Shown: positions 3,201-21,844 of the stretch, in pieces | Layout of the letters: every line of letters starts with the position of its first letter | Numbering within the stretch: position 1 is the first letter of the stretch | From: Caldimonas brevitalea | GTDB lineage: Bacteria; Pseudomonadota; Gammaproteobacteria; Burkholderiales; Burkholderiaceae_C | Length of the DNA stretch: 64,000 nucleotides | Reading direction: 5' to 3' | Assembly: GCF_001017435.1 (NCBI RefSeq) | Contig: NZ_CP011371.1 | Coordinates: 5,022,001-5,086,000 of the forward strand | Made by a program: the position numbers and the translations under genes | The notes under the pieces: generated by a model | Told to the model about the DNA's origin: nothing | Database searches by the model: none | The model's input: only the letters and a program-made list of their open reading frames with translations

Positions 3201-4188
3201 GGCGGCCTTGCTGGCGCTGGCCTGTGCGCCCTCTCCCGCTGCGGCCCCTGCCATCGTCGCCAACTTCGAACTGCGCGCCAATCAAGAGGCGCTGCCACGA
3301 CACGGCCAGGCAGCGAAGGCGGCCGTCCCCCTTTTGCTGCTCGAAGGCCAGGCGTTTCTGCTCGCGTTGCAGGAGGCCGGCGCGGTGCCCGGCGCCTCCG
3401 TCAGCAGGCTCGGCCATCTCGTGGGCTGGCCCGAGGCCTGGCAGCAAAGCCTGCACGCCGACTTCACCGACGCACAGGATGCCGACCTGCCGCGATTGCA
3501 TCTGGCGCGCCTCGCCGACGCCGCACCGCGCAGCTGGCCGGCGCCCTCGGACGCCGGTGTGTCGCGCGACGTCTGGCTGCTCGTCGACGAACCCGGCCCC
3601 GCCGCGCCCGAACGGCTGGACCGCCTGCGCGGTGCGCGGGACGCGCTGCAGGCGCTGGGTTGGCACCACGTCGTTTGGCTGGTGTTGCGACGGCCGCTCA
3701 CACCCGACGCACTGCCCGAACTTGCCCGCTCGCTGCCGGCCATCGCCGCGGACGGCAGCGTGCTCTACCTCGGTGCCGCGGGCGCACCGGACCAACCCTC
3801 TCTCGCAGGACCCCAAGGAGTAGCGAACGTGGATGCCGCAGCAACCCCCGACCCGACCAACGCGACCGATCCGAAAGACGTGCGGGGTGTGATCCGCGAC
3901 ATCTGGCGCCAGGTGTTGGGGGTCGACCAGGTGGGCCTGGACGACAACTTCTTCGACCTGGGCGGCAACTCGCTGTGGGCCTTGCAGATCGTCAGCCGTG
4001 TCAACAGCGCCTTCGGCTGCGAGCTTCATTTGTCTGAATTGCTGCACGCCGCCACCGTCAACGACCTGTCCGCGCTGGTCGAGAGCAAGCTGCTGAGCGA
4101 TGTCGACGACGGCGAGTTGAGCGCCTTGCTCGAAGAGCTTGGCGATCTGCCGGAAGAGGAAGCGCTGCGCCTGTTGCAGCAGTCCTGA
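298..4188 (+). CDS. Type I polyketide synthase module (KS-AT-ACP)
   Basis: This 1296-residue protein condenses a malonyl unit onto an acyl chain. Domains in order are a ketosynthase (about 10-440) with NTACSTSL (Cys185), His321 in ETHGTGT and His361 in KANVGHLG; an acyltransferase (about 535-830) with FPGQGSQ, GHSVGE (Ser627) and HAFH (723-726), which points to malonyl-CoA; and a C-terminal carrier domain with GGNSLWAL (Ser1225). There is no ketoreductase, dehydratase, methyltransferase or thioesterase. About 300 residues between the AT and the ACP (882-1190) are Ala/Pro/Leu-rich and not assigned; they may be a decayed reductive domain. The TTG start at 298 is chosen because GGAGG lies 5 nt upstream and the KS homology begins right after it. 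The carrier motif GGNS looks more PCP-like than the usual GxDS of an ACP, suggesting hand-off to or from an NRPS. Confidence 0.9.
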   Translation: MHSSDSLSPEAFDRIAVVGLQGVFPQAEDVEAFWQHIVAGRDCSTEFSDAELKAAGVPETLLKQPNFIKRRPLLKACDRFDAKFFGYTDIEAEALDPQLRLLLQCAWRALEEAGAVSTTQRQRAGLFAGLRQSRYLDEHLLASQRHCDALGADYLQMINRKDSAATLLAYKLDLGGPAISVNTACSTSLLAVHLACNSLLSFECDVALAGGAAIPAFGPDGHLYVPGGFLSADGRCRPFSDDAGGTIDGAGVGLVALKRLSDARRDGNLIHAVILGSAVNNDGADKVGYTAPSVSGQARVIADALALADVSPETIGYVETHGTGTRLGDPIEIRALTQAWRQHTSRSGYCHLGSAKANVGHLGAAAGVVGLIKATLAVREGHIPPLANHRQPNPQLELETSPFRVPLKAIDWPAADGPRRAAVSSFGIGGTNVHMIVEQAPAPLPRPAARATTTGERLFVLSAKSPAALADTAAAIAAAVTTLPPGALDDLGFTLRLSRAHLPWRTFVVADRATTLASRWQALPLPAAASVSRPRTAFLFPGQGSQHRGMTLALRDRLPAYRDALDRAAALVRQHAGFDLLDLLQHADDAALTRTDRAQPALFATSYALAAAWQSLGVQPEALLGHSVGELVAACVAGVFSLEDGVRLVCERGRLMQAAPHGAMLAVLLPAAELAPLLPASVELAVINGKAACVVGAETGAIESMQAALTSRGIGTRRLHTSHAFHTAAMEEAAQRFADVVGSVPLSAPRLPVISNLTGELLRDDQARSPQYWSRQLRSTVQFERGLAYLASMGVDCLVEVGAGTTLTGLARTELPKTVAIASQPHPTRLQESPSAAVSAFLQAAGELWARGVELDLAACNPPHPDARQVPLPGYQFERQRHWVEANPRRSETPSGQAPLAAPALQKVTLQPLLRDPAASQDDAATPFDAHALPADLFRTLAARGLPLLAAPETPAAAVLQHDPHPVEAALLALACAPSPAAAPAIVANFELRANQEALPRHGQAAKAAVPLLLLEGQAFLLALQEAGAVPGASVSRLGHLVGWPEAWQQSLHADFTDAQDADLPRLHLARLADAAPRSWPAPSDAGVSRDVWLLVDEPGPAAPERLDRLRGARDALQALGWHHVVWLVLRRPLTPDALPELARSLPAIAADGSVLYLGAAGAPDQPSLAGPQGVANVDAAATPDPTNATDPKDVRGVIRDIWRQVLGVDQVGLDDNFFDLGGNSLWALQIVSRVNSAFGCELHLSELLHAATVNDLSALVESKLLSDVDDGELSALLEELGDLPEEEALRLLQQS

Positions 4189-4280: not shown

Positions 4281-5468
4281 ATGAACGATCTGAAAGACAG
4301 GCTCGCATCGCTGACACCCGAGCAACTGGCGCGCCTGAAGAGCCAGCTGGCCTCGGCCAAGCCACGCACGCCGTCCAACGGCAAGCCGCTCGAGTTCACG
4401 CTGTTCTTCTTCTCGGCCGACGGCACCAGCGGCTCGGACCACAAATACGACCTGCTGTTGCGCTGCGCCGAGTTCGGCGATGCCCACGGCTTTCGCGCCA
4501 TCTGGACACCCGAGCGCCATTTCTCGCCCTTCGGCGGCCTCTACCCCAACCCGGCCGTGCTCGGCGCTGCGCTCGCGGCACGCACCAGCCGCATCGAGAT
4601 CCGCGCCGGCAGCGTGGTGCTGCCGTTGCACAACCCGATCCGCATCGCCGAGGAATGGAGCGTGGTCGACAACCTGTCCAACGGCCGGGTCGCGATGGCG
4701 TTCGCCAGCGGCTGGCACAAGACCGACTTTGCACTGCGGCCCGAGGCCTATGCCGCACGCCGTGACGCGATGGGCAGCGGCATCGAGACGGTGCGCCGCT
4801 TGTGGCGGGGCGAGCGGGTCGGCCTGCCGGGGGTCGACGGCGAGACCGTCGAGATCGTCACCTACCCGCGGCCGATCCAGCCCGAGCTGCGCTATTGGTT
4901 GACCTGCAGTTCCCCCACCGGCTGGGAGAAGGCCGGCGAGATCGGCGCCAACGTGCTGTGCATGCTGGGCCCGTCGGTCAGCAAGCTGGGTCAGAACATC
5001 GCGGCCTACCGCCAAGCCCGCGCGGCGGCCGGCCATGCAGCCGAAGGCGGCACCGTGTCGGTGATGCTGCACACCTATGTCGACAACGACCGCAAACGCG
5101 CCAAGGAGAAGGTACGCGGACCGCTCAAGGGCTACCTCGAGGACTACATCCGTCAATACGACGTGATGGTCGACGAGACCATCCAGAAGGACGTGCTGGC
5201 CAACAAGGACGCCTTCCTCGAGTTCGCGTTCGAACGCTATTTCGAGCAGGCCTCGCTGCTGGGGCCGCAAGACAAGTGCCAGCGGCTGCTCAACGAGCTG
5301 TCCGAGATCGGCGTCAACGAGATCGCCTGCCTGGTCGACTTCGGCGTCGAGACCGACGACGTGCTCGACAGCCTCTCGCTGCTCGAAGCCCTGCATTACC
5401 GCCACGCATCACCACAAGGCCTGGACACCGCCACGGCCGACACGACCGTCCAGAAGGAAACTACATGA
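4281..5468 (+). CDS. MupA/Atu3671-type FMN-dependent luciferase-like monooxygenase
   Basis: This 395-residue protein belongs to the bacterial-luciferase-like (TIM-barrel) flavin monooxygenases, in the subgroup named MupA/Atu3671 that is usually found in or beside PKS/NRPS enzymes. Visible family features are the entry strand FTLFFFSADG (about 34-43), IWTPERHFSPFGGLYPNP (about 74-91) and SGWHKTDF (about 139-146), followed by a C-terminal helical part with a conserved ERYFEQASLLG. Members use reduced FMN and oxygen to oxidise carrier-bound or released intermediates; the substrate here is unknown. The gene follows the PKS after 92 nt with AGGAG before its ATG, and its stop overlaps the next start (ATGA). 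The first 35 residues look like a short helical docking or linker tail, as if the domain had been cut out of a megasynthase. Confidence 0.85.
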   Translation: MNDLKDRLASLTPEQLARLKSQLASAKPRTPSNGKPLEFTLFFFSADGTSGSDHKYDLLLRCAEFGDAHGFRAIWTPERHFSPFGGLYPNPAVLGAALAARTSRIEIRAGSVVLPLHNPIRIAEEWSVVDNLSNGRVAMAFASGWHKTDFALRPEAYAARRDAMGSGIETVRRLWRGERVGLPGVDGETVEIVTYPRPIQPELRYWLTCSSPTGWEKAGEIGANVLCMLGPSVSKLGQNIAAYRQARAAAGHAAEGGTVSVMLHTYVDNDRKRAKEKVRGPLKGYLEDYIRQYDVMVDETIQKDVLANKDAFLEFAFERYFEQASLLGPQDKCQRLLNELSEIGVNEIACLVDFGVETDDVLDSLSLLEALHYRHASPQGLDTATADTTVQKETT

Positions 5469-6838
5469 CCCAGACCGCCGACCGCCAGCAGCAGATCGAC
5501 CAGCTCAGCCCCGAGGTGCGCAGCCGCTTGATCGCCAAGCTCGCCGAGCGTTCACGTTCCACCCAGCGTAAGGTCGAACTGCTGCAGACCCCGGCCGACT
5601 GGCTGACGCTCGACCGGCGTGCGCTGCTCAACCTGTTCGCTGCCGGCGAAGAGGCACCGGTCGACGCCGTCTCGATCACCTGTCTGAGCGACCGGGTGAT
5701 CGGCAACGGCTATGCCTTGAGCGACATCACGCACAAGTTCTGCGGCGACCTGCCGATGCTGACCAACGTGCGCGAGCTGTCGATCGGGCGCATCGCCACC
5801 CTCACCTTGCCGCGCACCTACGGGCAGATCTATGCCGAGAGCCAGGACATCGTCCGCCTGGTGCAGCAGAGCCTGCGCATCTCGGCGATGCTGGGCGCCA
5901 AGGCGGTGTCGCTGACCGGCTTGATCCCGTCGGCCACCGACTACGGCCGCGCCATCCGCAGCGAGCCGGGCCTGCCGGTGATGACGACAGGGCACGCCAC
6001 CACCACGTCGTCGGTGCTGCTGGCCCTGAAGCGGCTGCTCGACGAATCGGGCCGGCGCCTGGCCGAGGAAGATCTCTGCTTCATCGGCCTGGGGTCGGTC
6101 GGCACCTCCACCTTGCGTCTGATGCTGAGCGCGCTCGAACACCCGAAGCGCCTGACGCTGTGCGACGTCTACGGCAAGCGCGCGGACATCGAGGCGCTGA
6201 TGCGGGAGATCCGCGACGACCTCGGCTACCAGGGTGAGCTGCGCTTCGTCGCCTCGCAACGCGTCTGCCCGGACGAGGTGTATGCGGCCACCACCGTGGT
6301 GGGCGCCACCAATGCGCCCAACGTGCTCGACATCGACCGGGTGCGGCCGGGCACCTTGATCGTCGACGATTCCGACCCGCATTGTTTCGACGCCTCACGC
6401 GCCATCGCCCGCTTCGAAAGCGCCGGCGACATCCTGTTCACCGAAGGTGGCGCGCTGCGGGCGCCCGACGTGATCCGCCACCGCATCTATGTGCCCGAAC
6501 AGTTCGAATGGGCGCTGCAGTACCCGGTCGACGACGACAACGCGCACCACATCACCGGCTGCATCTTCTCGAGCCTGCTGTCGGCCAAGTACGGCTATCC
6601 GACCACGCTCGGCTACGTGAAGCCGGAGGACGCGCGCACCCATCTGGCGGGGTTGGTCAAGTACGGCTTCAGCGCTGCCAATCTGCACTGCGGCCCGTAC
6701 CGGCTCGCGCGCGAGCGCATCGACGCGTTCCGCCGTCACCACGGTGGCGGCGCCACCGAGCCGGCGGTCTTGCACGTCGACGACGTGCCGGGGCAAGGCC
6801 GCGTGCACGCCGCGCTGGCCGGCACGGCCGCAGGCTGA
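5465..6838 (+). CDS. Acyl-ACP-reductase-like NAD(P)-dependent enzyme
   Basis: This 457-residue protein resembles cyanobacterial acyl-ACP reductase (AAR), which reduces ACP thioesters to aldehydes with NADPH. The shared layout that I can see is a segment beginning TTGHATTTSS before the cofactor site (about 178-187), a Rossmann loop GLGSVG (208-213) followed by an acidic-ended strand TLCDVYGKRAD, a VVGATNAPN strand, and a candidate catalytic Cys366 in ITGCIFSS, aligned with the active Cys of AAR. The chosen ATG at 5465 overlaps the monooxygenase stop by 4 nt; a longer frame upstream lies inside that gene and is not used. In this cluster it could release the chain as an aldehyde, since no terminal TE or R domain exists. 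A simple dehydrogenase acting on a pathway intermediate is the alternative. The family link is by pattern reading only. Confidence 0.6.
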   Translation: MTQTADRQQQIDQLSPEVRSRLIAKLAERSRSTQRKVELLQTPADWLTLDRRALLNLFAAGEEAPVDAVSITCLSDRVIGNGYALSDITHKFCGDLPMLTNVRELSIGRIATLTLPRTYGQIYAESQDIVRLVQQSLRISAMLGAKAVSLTGLIPSATDYGRAIRSEPGLPVMTTGHATTTSSVLLALKRLLDESGRRLAEEDLCFIGLGSVGTSTLRLMLSALEHPKRLTLCDVYGKRADIEALMREIRDDLGYQGELRFVASQRVCPDEVYAATTVVGATNAPNVLDIDRVRPGTLIVDDSDPHCFDASRAIARFESAGDILFTEGGALRAPDVIRHRIYVPEQFEWALQYPVDDDNAHHITGCIFSSLLSAKYGYPTTLGYVKPEDARTHLAGLVKYGFSAANLHCGPYRLARERIDAFRRHHGGGATEPAVLHVDDVPGQGRVHAALAGTAAG

Positions 6839-6878: not shown

Positions 6879-9800
6879 ATGACGCAGCCGGTCGACTCCC
6901 TGCCCAACTTCTATTCGGTGATCCGCCACTGGGCGGCGCAAGCGCCCCAGCGGCTGGCCTTCAACTTCCTGGCAGACGGCGACACCACCGAGGCCACGCT
7001 CACCTACGGCGAACTCGACCGCCGGGCGCGAGCGGTCGCCAGCGTGTTGCAGGCCCGTGGCTGGGCCGACGCACCGGTGCTGTTGCAATACCGGCCGGGC
7101 CTGGACTTCATCGTCGCGTTCTTTGGTTGCTTGTACGCCGGCAGCATCGCGGTGCCGGCCTATCCGCCCACCGGCAACCGTTCCAAATCCGACCGTTTGC
7201 AAAAGCTGGTCGCCAGCTGCGGCGCCGTCGTCGTGTTGACCAACAACACCACGCGCGGTGACCTCGAACGCGACCTCGACGGGGCGGCCGCCACACTGCC
7301 GGTGGTCTGCACCGACGCGCTCGGCGACGCAGGCGCCGACGACTGGCGCGACCCTCAGGCCGACAGGCAACGCATCGCCTTCCTGCAGTACTCGTCCGGC
7401 TCCACCGGCGACCCGAAAGGTGTCGTCGTGACGCACGGCAACCTGATGCACAACCAGGCCACCATCCGCGCGGCGATGGGCAACGGCGACCACACCGTGT
7501 TCGCCAGCTGGCTGCCGCTGTTCCACGACATGGGCCTGATCGGCAACGTCATGCAGCCGCTGTATCTGGGCGTGCCTTGCCATTTGATGCCGCCGATGGC
7601 CTTCCTGCAGAAGCCGCTGCGCTGGCTGAAGCTGATTTCGGAGCAACGTGTCACTTGCACCGGCGGCCCCAACTTCGCCTACGACTTGTGCGTGGACAAG
7701 ATCAGCGACACCGAGCGCGCCTCGCTCGACCTGTCGAGCTGGCAGGTGGCGTACAACGGCTCCGAGCCGGTGCGCGCCGAGACGCTGCGTCGTTTTGCCG
7801 ACGCCTATGCGCCGCACGGCCTTGCGGCCGGCGCGCTCTACCCCTGCTACGGGCTGGCCGAGGGCACGCTGTTCGTCACCGGCCCCGAACCCGGGGCCGG
7901 TGCGCGGGTGCTCGACCTCGACGCCCGCGCGCTCGAATCCGGCCTGGTGCGGCCGGCGCACGGTGATGCTCGGTCGTCCCGGGCGCTGACAAGTTGCGGG
8001 CGGGTCTGGGGTGGTCAGTCGGTGCTGGTCGTCGATGCCGCCACGCGCACCCGTTGTGCCGACGGCCAGGTCGGCGAAATCTGGCTGCAGGGCGAGAGCA
8101 TCACCGGCGGCTACTGGCAGCGCCCGGACGCCAATGCCCAAAGCTTCGCGACGCTTGCCGATGCGGCCGACGCGGGCCGCTACTGCCGCACCGGCGATCT
8201 CGGCTTCTTCTCGAACGGCGAGCTGTATGTGACCGGCCGCCTGAAGGAGATGATGATCGTGCGCGGACGCAACCACTACCCGCAAGACATCGAGCACACC
8301 GTGCAGCAGGCCTGGCCGGGCTTCGTGCGCGGCGGCGGCGCCGCCTTCGTCGACGGTGAGCCGGGCCGCGAGCGGCTGGTGTTGGTGCAGGAGATCGCTC
8401 GCACCGCATTGCGCGGGTATCAGCACGCGCAGGCCGAGGAGTTGGCGCGCGAGGCGGTCGCGCTGCACCACGGGTTGACACTGTCGGAGTTGGTGCCGAT
8501 CAAACCCGCGACGCTGGCCAAGACCTCGAGCGGCAAGATCCGCCGCGACTTCATGCGAACGGCGTGGCGGCAGGGCGAGCTGACGCGGGTGGACCTGGGG
8601 CTGCCGGCCGGGCGCGGCGAGAGCGGCCCCGCGGCGGCGACGCTGCCGCCCCACTACGCCACGTTGCGCGACGCGCTGATCGAGCTCGACGTGCCGGCCA
8701 CGGCCATCGACGCCCGACACACCCTGCTGCAGCTCGGGCTCGACTCGCTGCAGCTGGTCGAGCTGCAGTCGCGACTGGCCCGGCGCCTCGGGGCCGCGCC
8801 CGCCATCGAAACGCTCTTTCGCGCCCAGTCGCTCGCGGCACTGGCCGCCGAGCTGGACCGCGTGCAGCCGGTGACACCGAGCGCCGACACCCAGCTGAGG
8901 ACGCCCGAGGTCGAGACCGACACCCTGACGCCGTATCAATGGGCCATCTGGCTGAAGCAGCAGCAAACGGAGGCGCCGATCTACAACCTGGCGGTCGCCT
9001 TCGAGTTCGAGCCGCACCTCGACACCGGCCGAATTGCGGCTGCGCATGCGCAACTGCTCGAACGCCATCGCCACTTGCGCAGCCACGTCGTCGAAGGCCC
9101 CGCCGGCGAACTGCGCTGGCAGCCGCTCGACACACCCGCCGCCGCCCGCCTCTGCGCGCTGCAATGCGAGCGCGTCGACGGCTGGAGCGAGACGCAGGTG
9201 GACGCCGCACTGGCGGCCTTCCGCCGCCGCCCCTTCCGCCTCGAGCAGGAGCCGCCCTTGCGCGCCTGGCTGCTCGAACGCGCCGGACGCGGCCCGCTGC
9301 TCGCGCTGTGCATGCACCACATCACGACCGACTTCCACGGCGCCGGCGCGCTCGTCGACGAGTTGCTGCGGTCGGTGGCGACCCCCGGTGACGTGCTGGC
9401 GCCGCCCGCGCCCGCACCGCACGCTTTGCTGGCTGAGGTGGCGACGTCCGCCCCCGCGGCTGACGAGGGCTGGCTGGACACATTGGCCGCGGCCGATGCC
9501 GATCTCGACCTCGGACTGCCCGCCCCCGCCGCCCCGGGCCTGCTGCCGCTGGCCAGTGTCGACCGCGCGCTGCCGGGCGATCTCGTCAAGGCGCTGCGCG
9601 ACACCGCCCGCGACACCGGCAGCACCCTCAACGTGCTGCTCGCCGCCGCCTTTGCGGCGCTGCTGCATCGCTACACCGGGCAGGACTCGCTGTGCCTGGG
9701 CATGCCGTTCTCGGTGCGGCCGGACACACTGCTCGACTGGCCCGGCAATGCCGTCAACATGGTGCCGCTGGCGCTGCGCTTCTCGGACGCCGACACACTG

Positions 9801-12095
9801 CAGACGCTGACCGACCAGACCACGCACGCGGTCGCCGCCGGGCTGCGCCACCGACACCTGCCGTTGATGCAGGTCGCCGAAGGTGTGCGGCGCCGGCAGC
9901 CGGGCCGCACGCAGTTGTTCGACGCCGTGTTCATCTGCCAGCCCGAGCGCGGTGGCGCCCGGCAGGCGGCGGCGGCGCTGCTGGCCGGCAGTGAGGCATG
10001 GCGCAGCAGCGGGCAATGGCCCGGGCTGCGGGTGCGCTCGCGTCAGGTGACGGCGAGCGCCGGCCAGGCGCTGCTGACGCTGCTGGTGTTCCCGCACGCC
10101 GATGGCGCCCGCCTCGCACTCGAATACGACCCGCAACGCCTGCCGGCCGACTTCGCCTCCCGTGTGCTGGATCACTACGCCGGCTTGCTGCGGACCTTCG
10201 TGCGCGACCCGCGGCAGCCCATTGCGCGAGCCGACTATTTGTCCGCGGACGAGTTGGCCTTGCAATGGCAGGCGTGGAACGCGGCCGGACACGCGACACC
10301 AGACACCGTACGGCGCACCACACTGGTCGAGCTGTTCCAGCAGCAAGTCGCAGCCCGGCCCGACGCGGTGGCGGTGCTCGATGCGAGCGGCAGCGCCTTG
10401 CGCTATGCCGAGCTGGCGACGCAGGCGCGGCAGTGGTGTGCACAGCTGCAGCGCCTGGGCGTCGGCCGTGGCGACTGTGTCGGCGTGGCCCTGCCCCGCG
10501 ACCGTCACCTGCCGGCCGCGCTGCTCGGGGTCCTGATGAGCGGTGCCGCCTATGTACCGCTCGACCTCGACTACCCGGCGGCCCGTTTGCATCACATCCT
10601 CGACAGCAGCGGCGCGCGTTGTGTGGTCACGGTGCCGGCGCAGGCGCAGCGGTTCACCGCCAGTGGCCGCCCCTGCCTGTTCCACGACAGCACGGCCGCC
10701 AGCGCCGAAGTGCGGCCCGTCCCGCTCAGTCCGGCGGACCCCGCCTATGTGCTCTACACCTCCGGCTCGACCGGCCAGCCCAAGGGCGTGCAGGTGACAC
10801 ACGGCAACGTGGTGGCGCTGCTCGCCTGGGCGTACCAGGCCCTCGACGAGTCGGAGCGCGCCCGGGTGCTCGCCTCCACCTCGGTGTGTTTCGACCTGTC
10901 CGTGTTCGAATTTTTCGTGCCGCTGTGTGGCGGCACCACCTGCGTGGTGGTCGAGCGCATCCTCGACCTGATCGAATCGGTGCCGGCGCCAGTGACCCTG
11001 ATCAACACCGTGCCCTCGGCGATCGACGCGCTGGTGGCCGCGCGTGCCGTGCCCGACAGCGTGCTGACCGCCCTGGTCGCGGGCGAACCGTTCCGCCAGG
11101 CGCTGGTCGAGCGGCTCTACGCCGGCAGCCGGGTGCGTCGGGTGCTCGACCTCTACGGGCCGACCGAAGACACCGTGTATTCCACCTGCGCCGAGCGCCG
11201 CCCCGGCGGGCGCGAGACCATCGGGCGGCCGCTGCCCGGCACCCGTGCCTACTTGCTCGACGCCCGTCAGCAACCAGTGCCGGCGGGCCTGCCCGGCGAG
11301 CTGTACCTGGCCGGCAGCGGCCTGAGCCTCGGCTACCGGGGTCGCGACGACCTGACCGCCGAGGCATTCGCCTTGCCGGCCGCGCTCGCCCACCTCGAGC
11401 AGCGCGTCTACCGCACCGGCGATATCGTGCGCTACACGGCCGGCGGCGAGATCGTCTACCTGGGGCGACGTGACCACCAGGTCAAGGTGCGTGGCTACCG
11501 CATCGAGCTGCAGGAGGTCGAAGCCTGCTTGCTGCGAGGTGATGCGGTCCAGGAGGCGGTGGCCCATGTCGTGCCGTCGGGGCAAGGGCATGCGACGTTG
11601 GTGGCCTATGTGGTGTGGCAAGGCGCGGGCGACGACACCGTGCGGCAACGCGAACTGAACGCTCACCTGGCGCGCCAGCTGCCGAGCTACATGCGGCCGT
11701 CGGTGATCGTGACCTTGGCGCAGCTGCCCCGCACGCTCAACGGCAAGGTCGATCGCAAAGCCTTGCCTACGGTCCAGCTGGCCGACAGCCGCGACGCCAC
11801 CCCGCTCCAGCCCGGCCTGGAAACCGAGCTCGCCGCCTTGTGGGGCGCCGTGCTCGGCACCACGCCGACGCAGCGTCGCGATCACTTCATCGAGCTGGGC
11901 GGCAACTCCTTGTCGGCCGTCCAACTGCGCACCGCACTGAAGCGCGAGTGGGCGCTGGATGTGCCGCTGGCGGCCCTGATCGCCGTGCCCGTGCTCGCCG
12001 ATCAGGCCGAGCTGCTGCGCGAAATGTCGGCCCGCCCGGCCGCTGCCGACGACACGTCTGGCGCCGCCACCGAACTCGAGGAAGTCGAACTGTGA
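6879..12095 (+). CDS. NRPS: FAAL-ACP-C-A-PCP
   Basis: This 1738-residue synthetase starts a lipopeptide chain. A fatty acyl-AMP ligase (about 1-570) has YSSGSTGDPKG and SWLPLFHDMGLIG; it activates a fatty acid and loads it on the ACP (LGLDSLQ, Ser623). A condensation domain follows (about 685-1120) whose active motif reads HHITTDF (His813-His814, Asp818), with Phe in place of the usual Gly. An adenylation domain (about 1150-1640) has LYTSGSTGQPKG (Tyr1293) and GKVDRK; its specificity pocket read by eye is D-L-F-N-L-A-L-V-Y-K, which is nearest to small-residue codes such as Ala but is not a firm match. A PCP ends the protein (GGNSLSAV, Ser1677). The ATG at 6879 has AAAGG 8 nt upstream and begins the FAAL homology. 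The gene stop overlaps the GTG of the next synthetase. Confidence 0.92.
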   Translation: MTQPVDSLPNFYSVIRHWAAQAPQRLAFNFLADGDTTEATLTYGELDRRARAVASVLQARGWADAPVLLQYRPGLDFIVAFFGCLYAGSIAVPAYPPTGNRSKSDRLQKLVASCGAVVVLTNNTTRGDLERDLDGAAATLPVVCTDALGDAGADDWRDPQADRQRIAFLQYSSGSTGDPKGVVVTHGNLMHNQATIRAAMGNGDHTVFASWLPLFHDMGLIGNVMQPLYLGVPCHLMPPMAFLQKPLRWLKLISEQRVTCTGGPNFAYDLCVDKISDTERASLDLSSWQVAYNGSEPVRAETLRRFADAYAPHGLAAGALYPCYGLAEGTLFVTGPEPGAGARVLDLDARALESGLVRPAHGDARSSRALTSCGRVWGGQSVLVVDAATRTRCADGQVGEIWLQGESITGGYWQRPDANAQSFATLADAADAGRYCRTGDLGFFSNGELYVTGRLKEMMIVRGRNHYPQDIEHTVQQAWPGFVRGGGAAFVDGEPGRERLVLVQEIARTALRGYQHAQAEELAREAVALHHGLTLSELVPIKPATLAKTSSGKIRRDFMRTAWRQGELTRVDLGLPAGRGESGPAAATLPPHYATLRDALIELDVPATAIDARHTLLQLGLDSLQLVELQSRLARRLGAAPAIETLFRAQSLAALAAELDRVQPVTPSADTQLRTPEVETDTLTPYQWAIWLKQQQTEAPIYNLAVAFEFEPHLDTGRIAAAHAQLLERHRHLRSHVVEGPAGELRWQPLDTPAAARLCALQCERVDGWSETQVDAALAAFRRRPFRLEQEPPLRAWLLERAGRGPLLALCMHHITTDFHGAGALVDELLRSVATPGDVLAPPAPAPHALLAEVATSAPAADEGWLDTLAAADADLDLGLPAPAAPGLLPLASVDRALPGDLVKALRDTARDTGSTLNVLLAAAFAALLHRYTGQDSLCLGMPFSVRPDTLLDWPGNAVNMVPLALRFSDADTLQTLTDQTTHAVAAGLRHRHLPLMQVAEGVRRRQPGRTQLFDAVFICQPERGGARQAAAALLAGSEAWRSSGQWPGLRVRSRQVTASAGQALLTLLVFPHADGARLALEYDPQRLPADFASRVLDHYAGLLRTFVRDPRQPIARADYLSADELALQWQAWNAAGHATPDTVRRTTLVELFQQQVAARPDAVAVLDASGSALRYAELATQARQWCAQLQRLGVGRGDCVGVALPRDRHLPAALLGVLMSGAAYVPLDLDYPAARLHHILDSSGARCVVTVPAQAQRFTASGRPCLFHDSTAASAEVRPVPLSPADPAYVLYTSGSTGQPKGVQVTHGNVVALLAWAYQALDESERARVLASTSVCFDLSVFEFFVPLCGGTTCVVVERILDLIESVPAPVTLINTVPSAIDALVAARAVPDSVLTALVAGEPFRQALVERLYAGSRVRRVLDLYGPTEDTVYSTCAERRPGGRETIGRPLPGTRAYLLDARQQPVPAGLPGELYLAGSGLSLGYRGRDDLTAEAFALPAALAHLEQRVYRTGDIVRYTAGGEIVYLGRRDHQVKVRGYRIELQEVEACLLRGDAVQEAVAHVVPSGQGHATLVAYVVWQGAGDDTVRQRELNAHLARQLPSYMRPSVIVTLAQLPRTLNGKVDRKALPTVQLADSRDATPLQPGLETELAALWGAVLGTTPTQRRDHFIELGGNSLSAVQLRTALKREWALDVPLAALIAVPVLADQAELLREMSARPAAADDTSGAATELEEVEL

Positions 12096-15000
12096 GCAAA
12101 GACGTTCTGCTGCTGATCGAGCGGCTGCGCGGGCGTGGCATCCAGCTGCGCGGCGAGCACGGCCAGTTGAAGATCACCGCGCCCAAGGGTGCACTCGATG
12201 CGGCCACCACGCAGCTGCTGCGCGACCACAAGGCCGAAGTGCTGACCTGGCTCACACAACTCGAGGCCGGTACGCCCGGCGGTATCCCCAAGGCCGACCT
12301 TTGCCCCGACACACCTGTGCCGGCGACCGTGGGCCAACAGCGCTTGTGGCTGCTGACCCAGCAAGGCATGGGCAGCGCCTATCACATCGCGGCTGGCCTG
12401 CGCCTGCAAGGCGAGCTCGACGAGGGCGCACTGCGCGCCGCGGTCGCGCACTGCCTGCAGCAGCATGCGGCCTTGCGCACCCGGCTGGTCGAGCGTGACG
12501 GCCGGCTGTGGCAGCAGGTGCAGCCCGAGGGGCCCGAGCTGGAGGTGGTGGACACCCCGGGGGCCGATGCCGTCGCGCTGCTGCACGACTACGCCGAGCC
12601 GCCCTTCGACCTCGCGCAACATGCCCCCGCCCGGCTGCGGTTGCTGCGCTGCGGCCCGCGCGAACAGGTGCTGCTGATCTGCGTGCACCACAGTGCCATC
12701 GACGGCTGGGGCCTGGGCCTGGTGCTCGAGCACCTCGGGCGCGCGTATGCAGCGCTGGCCCAGGGCCAAGAGCCCAGTTGGCCCACGGCCTCGCTGAGCA
12801 TGGCCGATGTCGCGCTGTGGCAGCAACGCCAGGACGAACAAGGCGCCCACGAGACCGCCCTCGCCTACTGGCAGGCCCAGTTGGCCGAGCGGCCCGAGCC
12901 GCTGCGCCTGAGCCCGCGCGAAGCGGCCCCCGACGACTGGCGCGGCGGCCAGCATCTGTTCGAGCTGCCCGCCACGCTGGCCCACGATCTGCAGCGCCTC
13001 GCCTCGGCCAGCCGCATCACGCTGTACCACTGGCTGTTGGCCAGCTACAAGCTGCTGCTGGGCAAGTACTGCGGCCAGCGCGAGGTCGCGCTGCTGGTGC
13101 CGGTGGCCAACCGGCAGGCCGCCGGCCTGCAGGACCTGGTCGGCCTGTTGACCAACACCGTGCCCAGCGTCAGCGTGATCGACAGCCGTTTGAGCCTGCG
13201 GCAATGGGCCCAGCAGGAGAGCGACACCACGCTGCAGGCCCTGGCGCACCACGGTGTGCCGTTCGAGCGCATCGTGCAGCACTGCCGAGCGCAAGGCCTG
13301 GAGGTGCCGGCCCACCTGATGTTCAGCCTGCAGACCGTCTCCGAGCTGGACCTGCAGCTGCCCGGGCTGCAGGGTGAGCTGCTGCGCTACCAGGCCAGCC
13401 AGGCCAAGTTCGACTTGAATTTGACCGTTGAGCAGCGCGGCGAGCGCCTGCTGGGGGTGCTCGAATACCGCCAGGCCGTGCTCGACGAAGACCAGGCGGC
13501 CACGCTGGCGCAGGCTTATGTGAGGCTGCTCGAACAGGTCGTGCAGGCGCCCGACCGGCCGCTCGGCGCCGTCGCGCTGGCGCCGGCGCGCGTGGAACCT
13601 TACGTGCCGGTGGCCGAGGGCCCCAGCGTGATCGAGCAGATCTACGCGCAAGTGGCCCGCACGCCGGACGCGCCGGCGGTTGTGCAAGGCACTCATGCCC
13701 TCAGTTATGCCCAGCTCTGGCAGCAGGTCAGCGGTGCGAGCCGCGCCTTGCGCGACGCCGGCATCGGCCGCGGCCAACAGGTCGGTGTGTTGTTGCCACC
13801 CGGCCCCTCGCTGGTCGTCGCGGCGCTGGCCGCGCATTGTGTCGGCGCCGCCTATGCGCCGCTGGACCTGCACCAGCCCACCGAACGCCTGGCACTGATG
13901 GTGCAGGACGCGCGGCTGGATGCGGTGTTCGCCTTGCCCGGCAGCACCCCGCTGGGAGAGGCGCTCTGGCTCGCGTTGAATCTTGAATCGGCAGTGGACC
14001 TCGAGCCGGTGATACCTGCGCCCGCCGATGCCCGCGACCCGGCCTATCTGATCTTCACCTCCGGCTCGACCGGCCGGCCCAAGGCGGCACGGGTCCACCA
14101 GCGTGGCCTGACCCAGCTGGTGCAGTGGTACCGCGAGACTTGCGTCGACGCGAACACCCGGGTGCTGGTCATCAGCAACCCCAGCTTCGACCTGACGCAG
14201 AAGAATTTGCTCGCGCCGCTGACCTGCGGTGCCGTGGTCGGCTTCCCCGCTGCCGAGCGCTTCGACCCGCAAGCGATCGCACAGGCCTTGCAGGCGCAGC
14301 GCAGCACCTTGGTCAACTGCACCCCCACGGCCTTCCAGACGCTGCTGCTGCAGGCCGAGGCCGACCCGCAAGGCGACACCGCGCTGCGCAGCCTGCGCCA
14401 CGTCGTGCTCGGCGGCGAGCCGATCGCGCTGCAGCCGCTGCGCCGCTGGCAGCAGCGCCACGGGCCGGTGCAGATCGTCAACAGCTATGGCCCCACCGAG
14501 TGCTCCGATGTGGTCGCCTATGAACTGCTGCCGCTGGACCTGGCGCAGGCCACCGCACCGATCGCCATCGGCGTAGCGGTGCCGGGTTGTCGGCTCGAGG
14601 TGGTCGACTTCGATGCCCAGCCGCTGCCGCCTGGCGCCGTCGGCGAGTTGCGCATCGACGGCGATTGTGTGGGCCTGGGGTACGTCGGCCGCGACGAGCT
14701 GACCGCCCAGCTGTTCCGCTCCGGCGGGTGCGGTGTCAACGGCTGGCGTTACCACAGCGGCGACCTGGTGCAGCAGCAAGCCGATGGGCGTTTGCAGTAC
14801 CTGGGCCGGCGCGACCAGCAGATCAAGCTCAACGGCTACCGCATCGAGCTGGGGGAGGTCGAGGCCGCACTGCTGGCGCTCGAGGGCATCGCCCAGGCCG
14901 CTGTCGCGGTGCGCCGCGATGCGCGTGGCAATGCCGTGCTGGCCGCCTTCTACGTGGGCCGTGAGGGCCACAACACGCACAGTGAAGACGGGCTGCGCCA

Positions 15001-18000
15001 GGCGCTGGCGGGCACACTCGCGAGCTACCAGGTGCCGGCCCGGTATGTGGCGCTCGAGGCCCTGCCGCTGACCCGCAGCGGCAAGGTCGACCGCAACGCG
15101 CTGCCACAGCAGTTGCCGGAGCGCGTGGCCACGACGGAGAGCGACGACGCGACACCGCTGAACCCGCGCGAGCACCACCTCGCCGCCGTCTGGGCCCAGC
15201 TGCTCGGCCTGGAGCGGCTACCGCGCCGTGACGACGACTTCTTCGCGCTCGGCGGCCACTCGATGCTCGCGCTTGAACTGGTGCGTGCCTTGCGTGAACA
15301 ACACCAGCTGCGCCTGAGCGTCGACCTCGTGTTCCGCCACCCCACCTTGCAAACCATGGCCGGCGTGCTCGAAGACACCCCGCCCGACGTGCAACACCCG
15401 CTGCTGCAGGTCGACGCCGCCACCCCGGTCGCGTTGACACCTTTGCAGCGCCGCCTGTGGTTCTTGTTCCGCCTCGAAGGACCGAACGCGAGCTACAACA
15501 TGTCCGCCGCCTATCGGCTGCGCGGCAGGCCCGATGTGCCCGCCTTGCTCGCCGCGCTGCGCGACGTCGTCACCTGCCACTGGATCTTGCGCAGCCGGTT
15601 GCAGCAAAGCGCCGACCAGCCGCTGCCGATGCTGGCCGTCGGCGACGTCGCCGACGTCCCGATCGTGCAAACATCGGCCCCGGCCGACCAAGTGCGCGAC
15701 CAGGTGGCGGCCTTCCTCGCCCGGCCGTTCGACCTCGCGCACGAAGCACTCGCGCGCTTCGAGCTGCTGCGGGTGTCCAACGACGAATGCCTGTTGCTCG
15801 CCAACCTGCACCACATCGTCTGCGACGGTCTGTCGCTGCGCACCCTGTTCGCCGACCTGGGGCGCGCCTACACGCTGCGGCGCCGCGGCGGCGCCACCCT
15901 GCTGGACGACAACCCGCCGCTGCAGTTCGCCCAACTTGCCGCGAGCCAGGCCCGCGACCGGGATGACGCCGCTTACCGGCGCCAGCGCGACGAACTGACG
16001 GCCGCCTTGCGCGACGCACCGCACGACTCGTCCTTGCCGACCGACTGGCCGCGTCAGCGGCAGCAGACCGATCGGGCCGCCGGCCGGATCGACCTGTCGC
16101 TGCCGCCGTCGCTGCGGGCGCAAATCCAGGCGCTGGCCGCCGCACACGCCACCTCCGGCTTCTGCGTCCTGCTCGCCAGCTGGTGCTGGTTGCTGTCGCG
16201 CTACCGGCGGCAGCACGACGTGGTGGTCGGCGTACCCATCGTCTGCCGCGACGAACCGGGCAGCGAAGACGTCATCGGCCCACTGCTCAACACGCTTGCG
16301 GTGCGGGTGGATGGCAGTGACACGCCCCACTTCTCGGCCTTGATCGACCGCACCGCGCGTGCACTCGAGTTCGCCCGCGAGCGCCGCCGCGTGTCGTTCG
16401 AAGACCTCGTCGACGCGCTGAACCCGCCCCGCATGCTCGACCTGTCGCCGGTGTTCCAGACCCAGTTCGTGATGGACCCGGTCGACGTCGGCGCGCTGGC
16501 CTTGGACCCGCTCGAGGTGCAAGCGCTCGGAGCGGCCGAGCTCGGCGCCGAGACCGGCGCGAAGTACGACCTGAACCTGCATTTGTTCGACAGCGGTCGC
16601 GACCTGAGCGGCTATCTCGACTACCGCCGTGCGCTGTACCACCGCAGCACCATCGAAGGTGTCGCCCAGGCCTGGTTGACACTGCTGCAGAGCCTCACGC
16701 AGCAACCCGAGCGTCCGCTCGCCGAGCACACGCTGCTGGACCCGCCAAGCTGGCGCGCCTTGCAGGCGGTGGTGCAACGTGTCGACCCGGACCTGCCCAC
16801 CGATCAGACCGTGCACCGGCTGTTCGAGCAGCAGGTGCGCCGCACGCCCGAGGCCGTCGCGCTGTCGAGCCGTGTCGAAGGCGAGTTGCACTACGCGGAA
16901 CTCGATGCCCGCGCCAACCAGTTGGCCCACCGGCTGCTCGCCGAAGGCCTGCGCGGCGGCGAGGTGGTGGCGGTGCTGCAAGGTCGCGGCCATGCGCGTA
17001 TCGTCACGCTGCTGGCGGTGCTCAAGGCCGGTGCGGCCTACCTGCCGGTGGACCCTGAATGGCCCAGCGAACGCCGCCGGCTGGTGCTCGATCAGGCGCG
17101 CTGCGGCTGGGCCATCGTCGACGAAGGGCAACGCCAGGCGCTGGCGGCGTCGGCCGCCACCGTGGCAGCACGTGTGCTGAGCCCATGGTCGCCGGCCGAC
17201 CGCGTGCACCCCTCGCAAGCCCCGGCGGTGACCGTCGGCGGCAACAGCCCCTGCTATCTGATGTTCACGTCCGGCTCGACCGGTGTGCCCAAGGGTGTGC
17301 TGATCCGCCACGGCGGTGTCGCACACGACCTGCTGTTTTTGATCCGCAAGCTGGGCCTGGGCCCCGGCGACCGGGTGCTGCAGCTGACCTCGTTCAGCTT
17401 CGACCCCTCGGTGCGCGACCTGTTCGCCACGCTCGGCAGCGGCGCGACGGCGGTGGTGGTCGACGACGAGACCGCCAAACACCCGGCCCGCATCGTCGCT
17501 GCCCTGCAATCGGCCCACGCGACCCATGTGCTGTCGATGGTGCCGACCCTGTTGCGTGCCTTGCTGGCAGAAGCCGACGCTGACACCACCCCGTGGCAAG
17601 GCGGCTTGCGTGTGCTGGGCCTCAACGGCGAGCGGCTGAGAGGCGACGATTGCGAGCGAGCGCGCCGCCGCTTCGGCACCGACCTGCACATCCTCAACCA
17701 GTACGGCCCCACCGAAGCGACGATGACGAGTGCGACGCATCTGGTGCAAGAGGCCGACACGCAAGCGCTCACCGTGCCGCTCGGCACGCCCAACCCCAAC
17801 ACGTCGCTTTATGTGATGGACGAACAGGGCCAGCCCCTGCCCGTGGGCGCCATCGGCGAAATCTGGATCAGCGGGCCGGGCCTGGCGGACGGCTACACGG
17901 GCCAGCCCGAGCAAAGCGCCGCCAGCTTTGTCAGCCGCTGCTTGCCGCACCAAGCGCAGCCGACGCGGTTCTACCGGACCGGCGACCTCGGCCGCTGGCG

Positions 18001-18736
18001 CGGCGACGGCGTGCTGGAGTTCCAGGGCCGGGTCGACTTCCAGATCAAGCTGCGCGGCCACCGGATCGAACTGGGCGAGATCGACGCCTGCCTCGGCCAG
18101 CAGCCGGGCATTGCGCACTGCGCCAGCACTTTGTACGAGGACGGCGCGGGGCGCCAGTGGTTGTGCGCTTTCTACACGCCGGCCGAGCCGGGCGTCGCGC
18201 TCGACGTGGGCCTGCTCAAGCAGGCGCTGGCGCGCCGGCTGCCGGCCGCGATGGTGCCGACACACTTCATCGAGCGCGCGACGCTGCCCCTGACCTCGAG
18301 CGGCAAGGTCGACCGCAAACGCCTGCCCGACCCGGCGCCGTTCGTGAACCTGCGCACCAGCGGTGGCAGCGCGCCGGCCGACGCGGTGGAGCGTCAGATC
18401 GCTGCGGTCTGGGCCGAACTGCTCGACCTGGCCGCCGCGCCCAACCGCGAGGCCAATTTCTTCGAGCTGGGCGCCAACTCGCTGTCGATGGTGCAGGCGC
18501 GCGACCGGCTGGCGCAGCAGTTCGGCGAGCAGCTGAGCGTGGTCGACCTGTTCCAGCACCCGAGCATTGCCGCGCTCGCCGCACACTTGCGTGGCAGTAC
18601 ATCGGGCGCGCCGGTCGTCCCCGGCGGTGTGGACGCCGACAAGCTCGACCGCCGCCGCGAGTTCCTGCAGCAGCGCGCGGGGCGTCAGCGTCCCGCCAGC
18701 CGCCCCCTGCAGGACCGTTTGCGCCACCAAGATTGA
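12092..18736 (+). CDS. NRPS: TubC-C-A-PCP-C-A-PCP, no release domain
   Basis: This 2214-residue synthetase adds two residues. It opens with a TubC-type N-terminal docking domain (1-50, SKDVLLLIERL), which should bind the C-terminal tail of the preceding NRPS. Module 1 has a C domain with intact HHSAIDG (His200), an A domain with FTSGSTGRPK (Phe655; pocket read as D-L-K-N-V-G-S-D-V-K) and a PCP (GGHSM, Ser1057). Module 2 has a C domain with HHIVCDG (His1241), an A domain with FTSGSTGVPKG (Phe1725; pocket roughly D-P-R-S-G-N-Q-M-T-K) and a PCP (GANSLSM, Ser2130). I cannot assign either pocket to an amino acid. Only about 50 basic, unstructured residues follow the last PCP, so no thioesterase, reductase or terminal C domain is present. 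The GTG start overlaps the upstream stop (GTGA) and sits exactly at the docking domain. Confidence 0.93.
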   Translation: MSKDVLLLIERLRGRGIQLRGEHGQLKITAPKGALDAATTQLLRDHKAEVLTWLTQLEAGTPGGIPKADLCPDTPVPATVGQQRLWLLTQQGMGSAYHIAAGLRLQGELDEGALRAAVAHCLQQHAALRTRLVERDGRLWQQVQPEGPELEVVDTPGADAVALLHDYAEPPFDLAQHAPARLRLLRCGPREQVLLICVHHSAIDGWGLGLVLEHLGRAYAALAQGQEPSWPTASLSMADVALWQQRQDEQGAHETALAYWQAQLAERPEPLRLSPREAAPDDWRGGQHLFELPATLAHDLQRLASASRITLYHWLLASYKLLLGKYCGQREVALLVPVANRQAAGLQDLVGLLTNTVPSVSVIDSRLSLRQWAQQESDTTLQALAHHGVPFERIVQHCRAQGLEVPAHLMFSLQTVSELDLQLPGLQGELLRYQASQAKFDLNLTVEQRGERLLGVLEYRQAVLDEDQAATLAQAYVRLLEQVVQAPDRPLGAVALAPARVEPYVPVAEGPSVIEQIYAQVARTPDAPAVVQGTHALSYAQLWQQVSGASRALRDAGIGRGQQVGVLLPPGPSLVVAALAAHCVGAAYAPLDLHQPTERLALMVQDARLDAVFALPGSTPLGEALWLALNLESAVDLEPVIPAPADARDPAYLIFTSGSTGRPKAARVHQRGLTQLVQWYRETCVDANTRVLVISNPSFDLTQKNLLAPLTCGAVVGFPAAERFDPQAIAQALQAQRSTLVNCTPTAFQTLLLQAEADPQGDTALRSLRHVVLGGEPIALQPLRRWQQRHGPVQIVNSYGPTECSDVVAYELLPLDLAQATAPIAIGVAVPGCRLEVVDFDAQPLPPGAVGELRIDGDCVGLGYVGRDELTAQLFRSGGCGVNGWRYHSGDLVQQQADGRLQYLGRRDQQIKLNGYRIELGEVEAALLALEGIAQAAVAVRRDARGNAVLAAFYVGREGHNTHSEDGLRQALAGTLASYQVPARYVALEALPLTRSGKVDRNALPQQLPERVATTESDDATPLNPREHHLAAVWAQLLGLERLPRRDDDFFALGGHSMLALELVRALREQHQLRLSVDLVFRHPTLQTMAGVLEDTPPDVQHPLLQVDAATPVALTPLQRRLWFLFRLEGPNASYNMSAAYRLRGRPDVPALLAALRDVVTCHWILRSRLQQSADQPLPMLAVGDVADVPIVQTSAPADQVRDQVAAFLARPFDLAHEALARFELLRVSNDECLLLANLHHIVCDGLSLRTLFADLGRAYTLRRRGGATLLDDNPPLQFAQLAASQARDRDDAAYRRQRDELTAALRDAPHDSSLPTDWPRQRQQTDRAAGRIDLSLPPSLRAQIQALAAAHATSGFCVLLASWCWLLSRYRRQHDVVVGVPIVCRDEPGSEDVIGPLLNTLAVRVDGSDTPHFSALIDRTARALEFARERRRVSFEDLVDALNPPRMLDLSPVFQTQFVMDPVDVGALALDPLEVQALGAAELGAETGAKYDLNLHLFDSGRDLSGYLDYRRALYHRSTIEGVAQAWLTLLQSLTQQPERPLAEHTLLDPPSWRALQAVVQRVDPDLPTDQTVHRLFEQQVRRTPEAVALSSRVEGELHYAELDARANQLAHRLLAEGLRGGEVVAVLQGRGHARIVTLLAVLKAGAAYLPVDPEWPSERRRLVLDQARCGWAIVDEGQRQALAASAATVAARVLSPWSPADRVHPSQAPAVTVGGNSPCYLMFTSGSTGVPKGVLIRHGGVAHDLLFLIRKLGLGPGDRVLQLTSFSFDPSVRDLFATLGSGATAVVVDDETAKHPARIVAALQSAHATHVLSMVPTLLRALLAEADADTTPWQGGLRVLGLNGERLRGDDCERARRRFGTDLHILNQYGPTEATMTSATHLVQEADTQALTVPLGTPNPNTSLYVMDEQGQPLPVGAIGEIWISGPGLADGYTGQPEQSAASFVSRCLPHQAQPTRFYRTGDLGRWRGDGVLEFQGRVDFQIKLRGHRIELGEIDACLGQQPGIAHCASTLYEDGAGRQWLCAFYTPAEPGVALDVGLLKQALARRLPAAMVPTHFIERATLPLTSSGKVDRKRLPDPAPFVNLRTSGGSAPADAVERQIAAVWAELLDLAAAPNREANFFELGANSLSMVQARDRLAQQFGEQLSVVDLFQHPSIAALAAHLRGSTSGAPVVPGGVDADKLDRRREFLQQRAGRQRPASRPLQDRLRHQD

Positions 18737-18758: not shown

Positions 18759-19166
18759 ATGAACACCCCCCAAGACGACACCCGCTTCGAGCGCGGGCTC
18801 GCCCTGCTGCGAGAGATCGAGCTCGACCTCGGCAACGAACACGGCCTGCTGCACGGCATGCGGGTCCATGCGCCGCGCTTCAAGCGCCGCACCATCGAGA
18901 TGTTCGGCGATTTCTATGCGGGCGAGCAGACCGTCGACCTGAAGACCAAGCTGCTGCTCGCGGTCGCGCATGCTTCACACCAGGCCAGCGACGAGGGCTT
19001 GCTGGAGTTCCACATCGGCGCCGCGCTGAAGGCGGGCTGGAGCCAGGTCCAGGTGGTCGAGGTGCTGGAACTGGCTGCCGCTTTCGCCGGATGGCAAACC
19101 GCCATTCGTGCGGTCCAGATCGCGGTGCGCACCTTCGAGAAATGCGCCAGCGCCGAAAAGAAATGA
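18759..19166 (+). CDS. Carboxymuconolactone decarboxylase-fold protein without CxxC
   Basis: This 135-residue protein has the all-helical AhpD/carboxymuconolactone-decarboxylase fold, recognised from the pattern KTKLLLAVAHASHQ...LLEFHIGAALKAGWSQVQVVEVLELAAAFAGW. Redox-active AhpD-type members carry a CxxC pair at the start of the second core helix; here that stretch reads ASHQASDEGLLEFH, with no cysteine, so peroxidase activity is unlikely. Some decarboxylase-type members work without the cysteines and use His instead. The gene starts 22 nt after the NRPS stop and its own stop overlaps the next ATG (ATGA), so it belongs to the operon. A GTG at 18753 is an equally good start, since AGGA at 18742 is better spaced for it. 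The role in the pathway is unknown. Confidence 0.75.
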   Translation: MNTPQDDTRFERGLALLREIELDLGNEHGLLHGMRVHAPRFKRRTIEMFGDFYAGEQTVDLKTKLLLAVAHASHQASDEGLLEFHIGAALKAGWSQVQVVEVLELAAAFAGWQTAIRAVQIAVRTFEKCASAEKK

Positions 19167-20011
19167 ACACCACCGCCCCCCGTTTGTCGCCGCGCCCGAT
19201 GGGTGCGTTCCTGCCCGTCGACGCCGAGGGCTACCTGGTCAACGACTGCCGCGCCGACCATGTGCCGCCGGCGTTGGCGGCGCTCGTGATCGAGCACTAC
19301 CGGCAAAGCTTCGGTGCGCACCTGCGTTCGGTCTATGTGCGCGGCTCGGTGGCCCGCGGCACCGCGGTGGACGGCGTGTCCGACCTCGACACCTTTGCGG
19401 TGGTCGACGACGCCGCGTCGCCGTCCTGCCCGCTGCTGCCGCCCGAGTTGCTCGAGCGGCTGCACGCGGCGGCGCCCGGGCTGGCCGACTTCGAGTTCCA
19501 CGCCTGCCGCCGCAGCGCGGTCACCGGCAGCTACTACAGCACCTGGGCCTTTCTGGTGAAGACGCAATCGGCCTGTTTGCACGGCGAAGACCTCGGGCCC
19601 GCGCTCGCCCCCTACCGCGTCGGCCCCGAATTGATGGCCGAAGCCCTTTACCTGCGACAACGGCTCGCGCTCTATGCGCAGCGCCTGGCGGCGGAGCAAC
19701 AGGCACCGCCGCCACAGCAGATCGCCACCTGTCAGTGGTTCATGAAAGCCCTGGTGCGCGCCGCGTTCGACCTCACGCTCGACCGCGCCCGGCGCTACAC
19801 ACGCGACCTCTATCCCTGCTATGCGACCTTCGCGGAGCTGTATCCCGAGCGCGGGCCCGACTGCTGGCGGGCGCTTGAATGGGCCATCTCGCCCACGCCG
19901 GACACCGAACCGCAGCGCCAGCTGGCCGAGGACTTCGGCCACTGGATCTGCGACGAGGCAGACGTGGTCGCGCGCCGCAACGGCATCGATCCGAGCCGCT
20001 ATGTGCTGTGA
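19163..20011 (+). CDS. Nucleotidyltransferase-fold protein
   Basis: This 282-residue protein has the signature of the DNA polymerase beta-type nucleotidyltransferase fold: VYVRGSVARGTAVDGVSDLDTF, where Gly61-Ser62 and the metal-binding pair Asp74/Asp76 are in place. Aminoglycoside adenylyltransferases and related enzymes share this arrangement, and the C-terminal half is helical, as in those enzymes (about 150-282). The likely chemistry is transfer of a nucleoside monophosphate from an NTP to a small molecule. Inside a biosynthetic operon it could be a self-protection enzyme that adenylylates the product, or a tailoring step. The start overlaps the previous stop by 4 nt. The substrate cannot be read from the sequence. 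Confidence 0.7.
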   Translation: MNTTAPRLSPRPMGAFLPVDAEGYLVNDCRADHVPPALAALVIEHYRQSFGAHLRSVYVRGSVARGTAVDGVSDLDTFAVVDDAASPSCPLLPPELLERLHAAAPGLADFEFHACRRSAVTGSYYSTWAFLVKTQSACLHGEDLGPALAPYRVGPELMAEALYLRQRLALYAQRLAAEQQAPPPQQIATCQWFMKALVRAAFDLTLDRARRYTRDLYPCYATFAELYPERGPDCWRALEWAISPTPDTEPQRQLAEDFGHWICDEADVVARRNGIDPSRYVL

Positions 20012-21271: not shown

Positions 21272-21273
21272 CC

Positions 21274-21825: not shown

Positions 21826-21844
21826 CCCGCTGATCGCACCGCCC

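Follow-up and report, generated by a model that had tools for sequence, protein, structure and literature searches.

A conserved gene pair in Caldimonas brevitalea joins a MupA/Atu3671-type monooxygenase to a free-standing relative of the carmabin TAD: candidate trans enzymes for hydroxylation and release of a polyketide-ended chain

What may a luciferase-like monooxygenase and a second enzyme of reductase-like fold be doing side by side within an assembly-line operon? The question is raised by a window of 64,000 nucleotides from Caldimonas brevitalea (contig NZ_CP011371.1, positions 5,022,001 to 5,086,000), in which the genes of a flavin mononucleotide (FMN)-dependent monooxygenase (395 aa) and of a TAD-like protein (457 aa), both with ATG starts, lie between a polyketide synthase (PKS) gene and two nonribosomal peptide synthetase (NRPS) genes, NRPS1 and NRPS2 (Table 1). 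The two open reading frames (ORFs) share the bases ATGA at 5465-5468; the pair begins 92 bases after the PKS gene and ends 40 bases before NRPS1, and accessory genes run to position 25021. Both the four-base overlap and the NRPS/PKS setting had been part of the original prediction for this DNA, and both are borne out. Altogether, the pair is real and conserved, and it makes sense as an α-hydroxylase and a release enzyme that both act in trans. Our tentative reading, held at not quite even confidence, is that the two enzymes tailor and release the chain of the last, polyketide module, which the TAD-like enzyme would free most likely as a primary carboxamide.

The monooxygenase scores 434.9 bits on TIGR04020, the model of the MupA/Atu3671 family, against a curated cut-off of 244.45, in agreement with the family originally proposed for it, and among solved structures PuwE (6ket, E 9.1e-95) comes closest to it in sequence. 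It thus shares a family with MupA, OocM, CalD and PuwE. According to PMC10953402, MupA is a trans-acting, ACP-dependent α-hydroxylase requiring an ACP-bound β-keto thioester, with no turnover of the free pantetheine form or of the β-hydroxy form, and is said to resemble CalD. In mupirocin biosynthesis ketoreduction follows and then transfer to the next module, whereas the partner in the window is a release enzyme. As for FMN supply, the related cluster of Chitinivorax sp. B holds a flavin reductase-like gene (L106 1780-2334) whose product might serve the monooxygenase as FMN reductase; in the genome of the window this family is located elsewhere, outside the cluster.

The neighbouring PKS appears to fit MupA-like α-hydroxylation of a β-ketoacyl-ACP, as predicted from its architecture. 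A Pfam scan found KS, AT and ACP and no KR, DH or ER, and 310 residues between AT and ACP, where about 285 residues (window 2983-3837) hold no known domain, matched no Pfam family at E≤1; a cryptic KR was sought there by Pfam and none was found. Since it is a KS-AT-ACP module without KR, DH or ER, it should present the β-keto substrate of a MupA-type enzyme. The AT carries the motifs GHSVG and HAFH, which by a motif rule we take to be of the malonyl type. The PKS of Chitinivorax (1295 aa) is as long as this one, and those of the related clusters in Pantoea, Erwinia, Hahella and Robbsia are shorter.

The TAD-like protein matches the carmabin TAD (PDB 9e4s, 9e4u, 9e4x, 9e50, 9e56) in sequence and fold across about 390 residues, at 297 bits versus 28 bits for the N-terminal region of PigE (4ppm), a weak match with E 5e-10. 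Pfam gives no family for it, and the family call therefore rests on the solved structures. The Rossmann motif GLGSVG and the cysteine that had been pointed out in the original prediction are there: G208, G210, G213 and C366 are invariant in an alignment of 42 TAD-like sequences, and C366 is the equivalent of Cys2238 in the carmabin TAD. Asp234 is likewise invariant and is placed at a strand end in the structure model. An aspartate in that position after a Rossmann motif points to the choice of NAD(H), a rule which suggests use of NAD(H) by this enzyme as well. The earlier description as an enzyme like acyl-ACP reductase (AAR) stands in part. Structure comparison gave the AAR fold, shared with the cyanobacterial enzyme (PDB 6jzu, 6jzy, 6jzq, 6jzz), and the cysteine is kept, but phmmer found no AAR chain at E≤1, identity in the structure alignments is only 13-14%, and the carmabin TAD is far closer, so that the protein is best viewed as a free-standing relative of the latter.

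Rankin, Smith and colleagues reportedly described a putative terminal amidation domain in 2025, and we take this to be what TAD stands for, in view also of the amide context in PMC10949194, where the mechanism of terminal amidation in such assembly lines was called unstudied in 2024. In the carmabin pathway the TAD is a C-terminal NRPS domain, and so are those that end VatR and HcaD, both of which follow a PCP, whereas the window encodes the protein as an ORF of its own, next to a PKS gene and paired with that of a monooxygenase, and not as a domain in cis at a megasynthase end; it is therefore filed as a free-standing relative rather than as a TAD of the described architecture.

How widely the two genes travel together was examined by scanning genome contigs for relatives of the TAD-like gene. 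The best 80 of 159 relatives were analysed, which with two of three plasmid matches and the window make 83 loci; no fetched flank exceeds 10 kb and there are short loci among them, so that a missing neighbour at these is weak evidence. In six of the 83 the fetched DNA also holds the monooxygenase gene, which in each case immediately precedes the TAD-like one; these six are the window, Pantoea stewartii plasmid pCN101, Erwinia sp. ErVv1, Hahella sp. CCB-MM4, Erwinia piriflorinigrans and Robbsia andropogonis. A seventh cluster was found later in a genome of the window's order, taken to be that of Chitinivorax sp. B (proteins P0003 and P0123), and two protein searches gave six further presumed pairs (P0004/P0131, P0005/P0125, P0008/P0129, P0009/P0138, P0020/P0169 and P0022/P0171). 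Because both genes directly adjoin in six clusters besides the window's, their pairing is not a matter of chance, and conservation as neighbours, on which the original prediction had hung, is confirmed. The ATGA overlap itself is not kept across clusters: the monooxygenase stop and the TAD start lie 1 base apart in Pantoea and Erwinia ErVv1, 6 in E. piriflorinigrans, 19 in Hahella and further in Robbsia. No description of such a pair was found in the open-licence literature of PubMed Central (bioRxiv excluded).

Most other relatives are parts of larger proteins. A script called 71 of the 83 loci fused to a longer upstream open frame, 8 free and 4 cut by a contig end; one fused call, the window itself, is an artefact, which leaves 70, and the ORF listing places the TAD-like gene of the window inside a longer frame that starts at a GTG further upstream. 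A carrier-protein-like motif lies within 260 residues in 57 of the 71 fused calls. The nearest in-frame upstream domain, at the 74 loci other than L001, L002, L004-L007, L020, L081 and L082, is A in 62, KS in 3 (more than 3 kb away), C in 1 and nothing in 8. The free calls comprise five pairs, two Rickettsia records with free-standing genes and no monooxygenase in the fetched DNA (L081 464-1609, L082 10001-11134), and L020, whose frame breaks off. Close to the window such proteins are rare: 1 of 60 relatives has one (E≤1e-3), and at E≤1e-20 they occur in 1 of 369 genomes from the class and 2 of 399 from the order, each count including the window's own genome. In E. coli genomes there was no match at the DNA level.

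In a tree of 92 TAD-like rows, twelve of them labelled as pairs (P0004, P0008, P0009, P0020 and P0022 presumed), these twelve and six free-standing proteins of unplaced context make up one side of a branch with support 100/100, and no row labelled as fused falls there. The label needs five changes on the tree, since the proteins of unplaced context fall among the pairs; one of them, P0018, is identical to the Robbsia row. Another free-standing protein, P0094, falls elsewhere, and long branches among the fused rows drew a warning from the program.

If both enzymes work in trans, they would need a way to find their module. Both begin with a similar stretch (Table 1), which in the structure model of the TAD-like protein overlaps a helix at residues 16-32. 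A pattern devised after viewing both proteins and sought in the first 45 residues occurs in 94 of 120 listed monooxygenase homologues, whereas only 2.4% of N-termini have it after shuffling; among the 42 TAD-like proteins 400-470 aa long, 16 carry it. A leucine-rich acidic tail, judged by eye, ends the PKS in all seven clusters; a pattern for it matches the window and Pantoea, misses Chitinivorax and found nothing in NRPS1 and NRPS2 of the window and Pantoea. Trans docking of a TAD-type enzyme has a sequence precedent, as two other relatives, P0023 and P0046, carry an N-terminal TubC docking domain. The gene order in Robbsia is NRPS2, PKS, monooxygenase, TAD.

The pathway that we infer would run as follows. 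NRPS1, starting from its FAAL-like domain, and NRPS2, in which no release domain was found, would build an N-acyl peptide, to which the KS-AT-ACP module would add one malonyl unit; since the PKS has no ketoreductase, a β-ketoacyl-ACP would be left on the module. The monooxygenase would hydroxylate its α carbon, and the TAD-like enzyme would then move the α-hydroxy-β-ketoacyl chain from the ACP to Cys366, next to bound NAD(H), and free it, most likely as a primary carboxamide, the N-acyl chain being trimmed later by an acylase from an adjoining gene. An amide is favoured over an aldehyde because of the family and because no aldehyde-using genes occur among those scanned.

Several points weigh against this scheme. 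Amidation by TADs is read from a correlation with products, and no ammonia donor was found in the cluster of the window. The described TADs stand in cis on NRPS modules, whereas the presumed partner here is a PKS in trans, and docking is suggested by motifs picked after inspection: of the 22 closest TAD relatives (P0001-P0022), 14 match the pattern and 8 miss it, most of these by one letter (e.g., LPPELRAKL, LAPNVRELL), and the N-terminal helix stretch is missing from P0169 and P0171, both presumed to be partner monooxygenases. Moreover, the PKS may hold a very degenerate KR, and the stand-alone thioesterase-like gene, kept in six clusters, could release the chain instead.

The related enzymes of other pathways raise further objections, and with them the rivals to release as an amide. 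The strongest, unlikely in our view yet deserving serious weight, is that the TAD-like enzyme is an NADH-dependent thioester reductase, so that the chain hydroxylated on the ACP leaves as an α-hydroxy-β-keto aldehyde and then cyclises or reacts. Its AAR fold, its cysteine and the weak PigE match agree with this, as does TamH, whose AAR-like reductase domain with a cysteine, from a natural product cluster, is NADH-specific and yields a C12 aldehyde, according to PMC9594044; since TamH does both, use of NADH does not exclude aldehyde formation. On the other hand, the sequence is far nearer to the carmabin TAD than to PigE, neither an aminotransferase nor an alcohol dehydrogenase is among the cluster genes scanned, and the aminotransferase domains that TamH and PigE carry were not found in the cluster of the window. 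A Baeyer-Villiger-type variant is improbable, in which α-hydroxylation is followed by chain shortening and the TAD-like enzyme releases the shorter unit; the related CalD (calyculin) and MndB (mandelalide) are credited with such chain shortening in PMC8739492, and the likeness of MupA to CalD speaks for it too, but nothing in the cluster requires a shortened chain. Still less probable is the lux logic of the original prediction, with the reductase making an aldehyde that the monooxygenase oxidises with FMNH2 and O2: both folds are of that general kind, but MupA takes an ACP-bound β-keto thioester, the free pantetheine form being no substrate for it (PMC10953402), and a docking-like helix precedes most of the monooxygenase homologues listed. 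Re-oxidation of a fresh aldehyde to an acid would, moreover, be futile. Very improbable, lastly, is that the monooxygenase itself releases the amide while the TAD-like enzyme does something else, as reported for the Mox domain of myxothiazol MtaG, an enzyme of the same broad kind by which a glycine-extended chain is α-hydroxylated and falls apart to an amide, since the module here is a PKS with a malonyl-type AT and not a glycine module, and the TAD-like gene adjoins the monooxygenase in all seven clusters.

Table 1. Positions of the genes and putative docking elements in the window, and of NAD synthetase genes in related clusters
Feature	Position	Strand	Basis
PKS, KS-AT-ACP, 1296 aa	298..4188	+	Pfam, motifs
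PKS C-terminal tail, about residues 1272-1296 (ELSALLEELGDLPEEE...), putative docking tail	4111..4185	+	
MupA/Atu3671-type FMN-dependent luciferase-like monooxygenase, predicted α-hydroxylase	4281..5468	+	TIGR04020, PuwE matches
N-terminal helix motif LTPEQLARL (residues 11-19) of monooxygenase, putative docking element	4281..4361	+	
Free-standing relative of carmabin TAD; AAR fold; Cys366, GLGSVG 208-213, Asp234	5465..6838	+	
N-terminal helix motif LSPEVRSRL (residues 14-22) of TAD-like protein, putative docking element	5465..5554	+	
NRPS1: AMP-binding (FAAL-like), ACP, C, A, PCP	6879..12095	+	
NRPS2: TubC_N docking, C-A-PCP-C-A-PCP	12092..18736	+	
Carboxymuconolactone-decarboxylase-family (CMD) protein, kept in cluster	18759..19166	+	
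Nucleotidyltransferase-like protein, kept in cluster	19163..20011	+	weak: PF01909 E 0.0014, below cut-off; Pantoea homologue annotation
MFS transporter	20045..21271	+	
Conserved protein, no Pfam or NCBIfam match; homologues in clusters	21268..21825	+	
AMP-binding (FAAL-like) ligase	21818..23554	+	
Stand-alone thioesterase-like α/β hydrolase	23551..24357	+	
LysE-type exporter	24335..25021	+	
NAD synthetase genes in clusters	L002 37915-39612; L095 8070-9725; L097 11597-13273; L106 31-1776; L103 10537-11403; L102 5462-7504		

The surrounding genes are kept as well. The order PKS, monooxygenase, TAD, NRPS1, NRPS2, CMD, nucleotidyltransferase, MFS, conserved protein, AMP-binding ligase and hydrolase is common to six clusters (window, Pantoea, both Erwinia, Hahella and Chitinivorax), with LysE matched in all of these except Hahella; in Robbsia only NRPS2, PKS, monooxygenase, TAD, an acylase and a NAD synthetase were seen. 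A porin gene (25018-26166), which overlaps LysE by 4 bases and lies outside the compared cluster genes, closes the run in the window. Wherever they are visible, the A-domain signatures, read by eye, agree between the window, Pantoea, both Erwinia and Hahella, but in Chitinivorax NRPS1 carries an A domain of the NRPS2 type. There (L100, ~5615 and ~8708), this domain and the first A domain of NRPS2 are identical in the stretch compared, as would be seen had one module been copied over the other.

All seven clusters come with a penicillin acylase gene; in the window's genome it lies on the same strand, ~3.0 to 0.3 kb ahead of the first base of the window (L141 14004-16685). Further acylase genes occur elsewhere in three of the seven genomes or records (two in the window's own genome, G000, four in G434 and one in G798), and the family is found in 4 of 14 control genomes. 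In other prodrug pathways an acyl group is removed after synthesis, and by analogy the acylase suggests such a removal of the FAAL-loaded group.

A NAD synthetase gene is present in every cluster except the window's, in three different types: a form of ~565 aa, 55-75% alike, in Pantoea, both Erwinia and Chitinivorax, whose Pantoea and Chitinivorax members were shown to have a CN-hydrolase domain; one of 288 aa in Hahella; and a divergent one of 680 aa in Robbsia. A separate copy exists elsewhere in all four genomes searched (both Erwinia, Hahella and Robbsia), being of the other length class in both Erwinia and Hahella. Whether for NAD supply, ammonia supply or immunity, a role for the cluster copy is speculation. 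In one improbable scenario, the product would be an N-acyl prodrug with an α-hydroxy-β-keto carboxamide end put on by the trans pair, from which the acylase frees an inhibitor of NAD synthetase, the extra synthetase conferring immunity. For the genome of the window, which holds two full-length copies, neither in the cluster, the immunity reading of the second copy was dropped, since three of eight congeners (G002, G003 and G004) also hold two or three strong matches.

Being free-standing, with an ACP partner presumed to be its own, this TAD relative would make the reaction of these enzymes directly testable without a megasynthase. The pair would place α-hydroxylation at the chain-ending step, and the predicted terminal group, an α-hydroxy-β-keto amide, can be searched for by mass spectrometry, while the NAD synthetase that recurs from cluster to cluster may point to a target or to a link through the cofactor.
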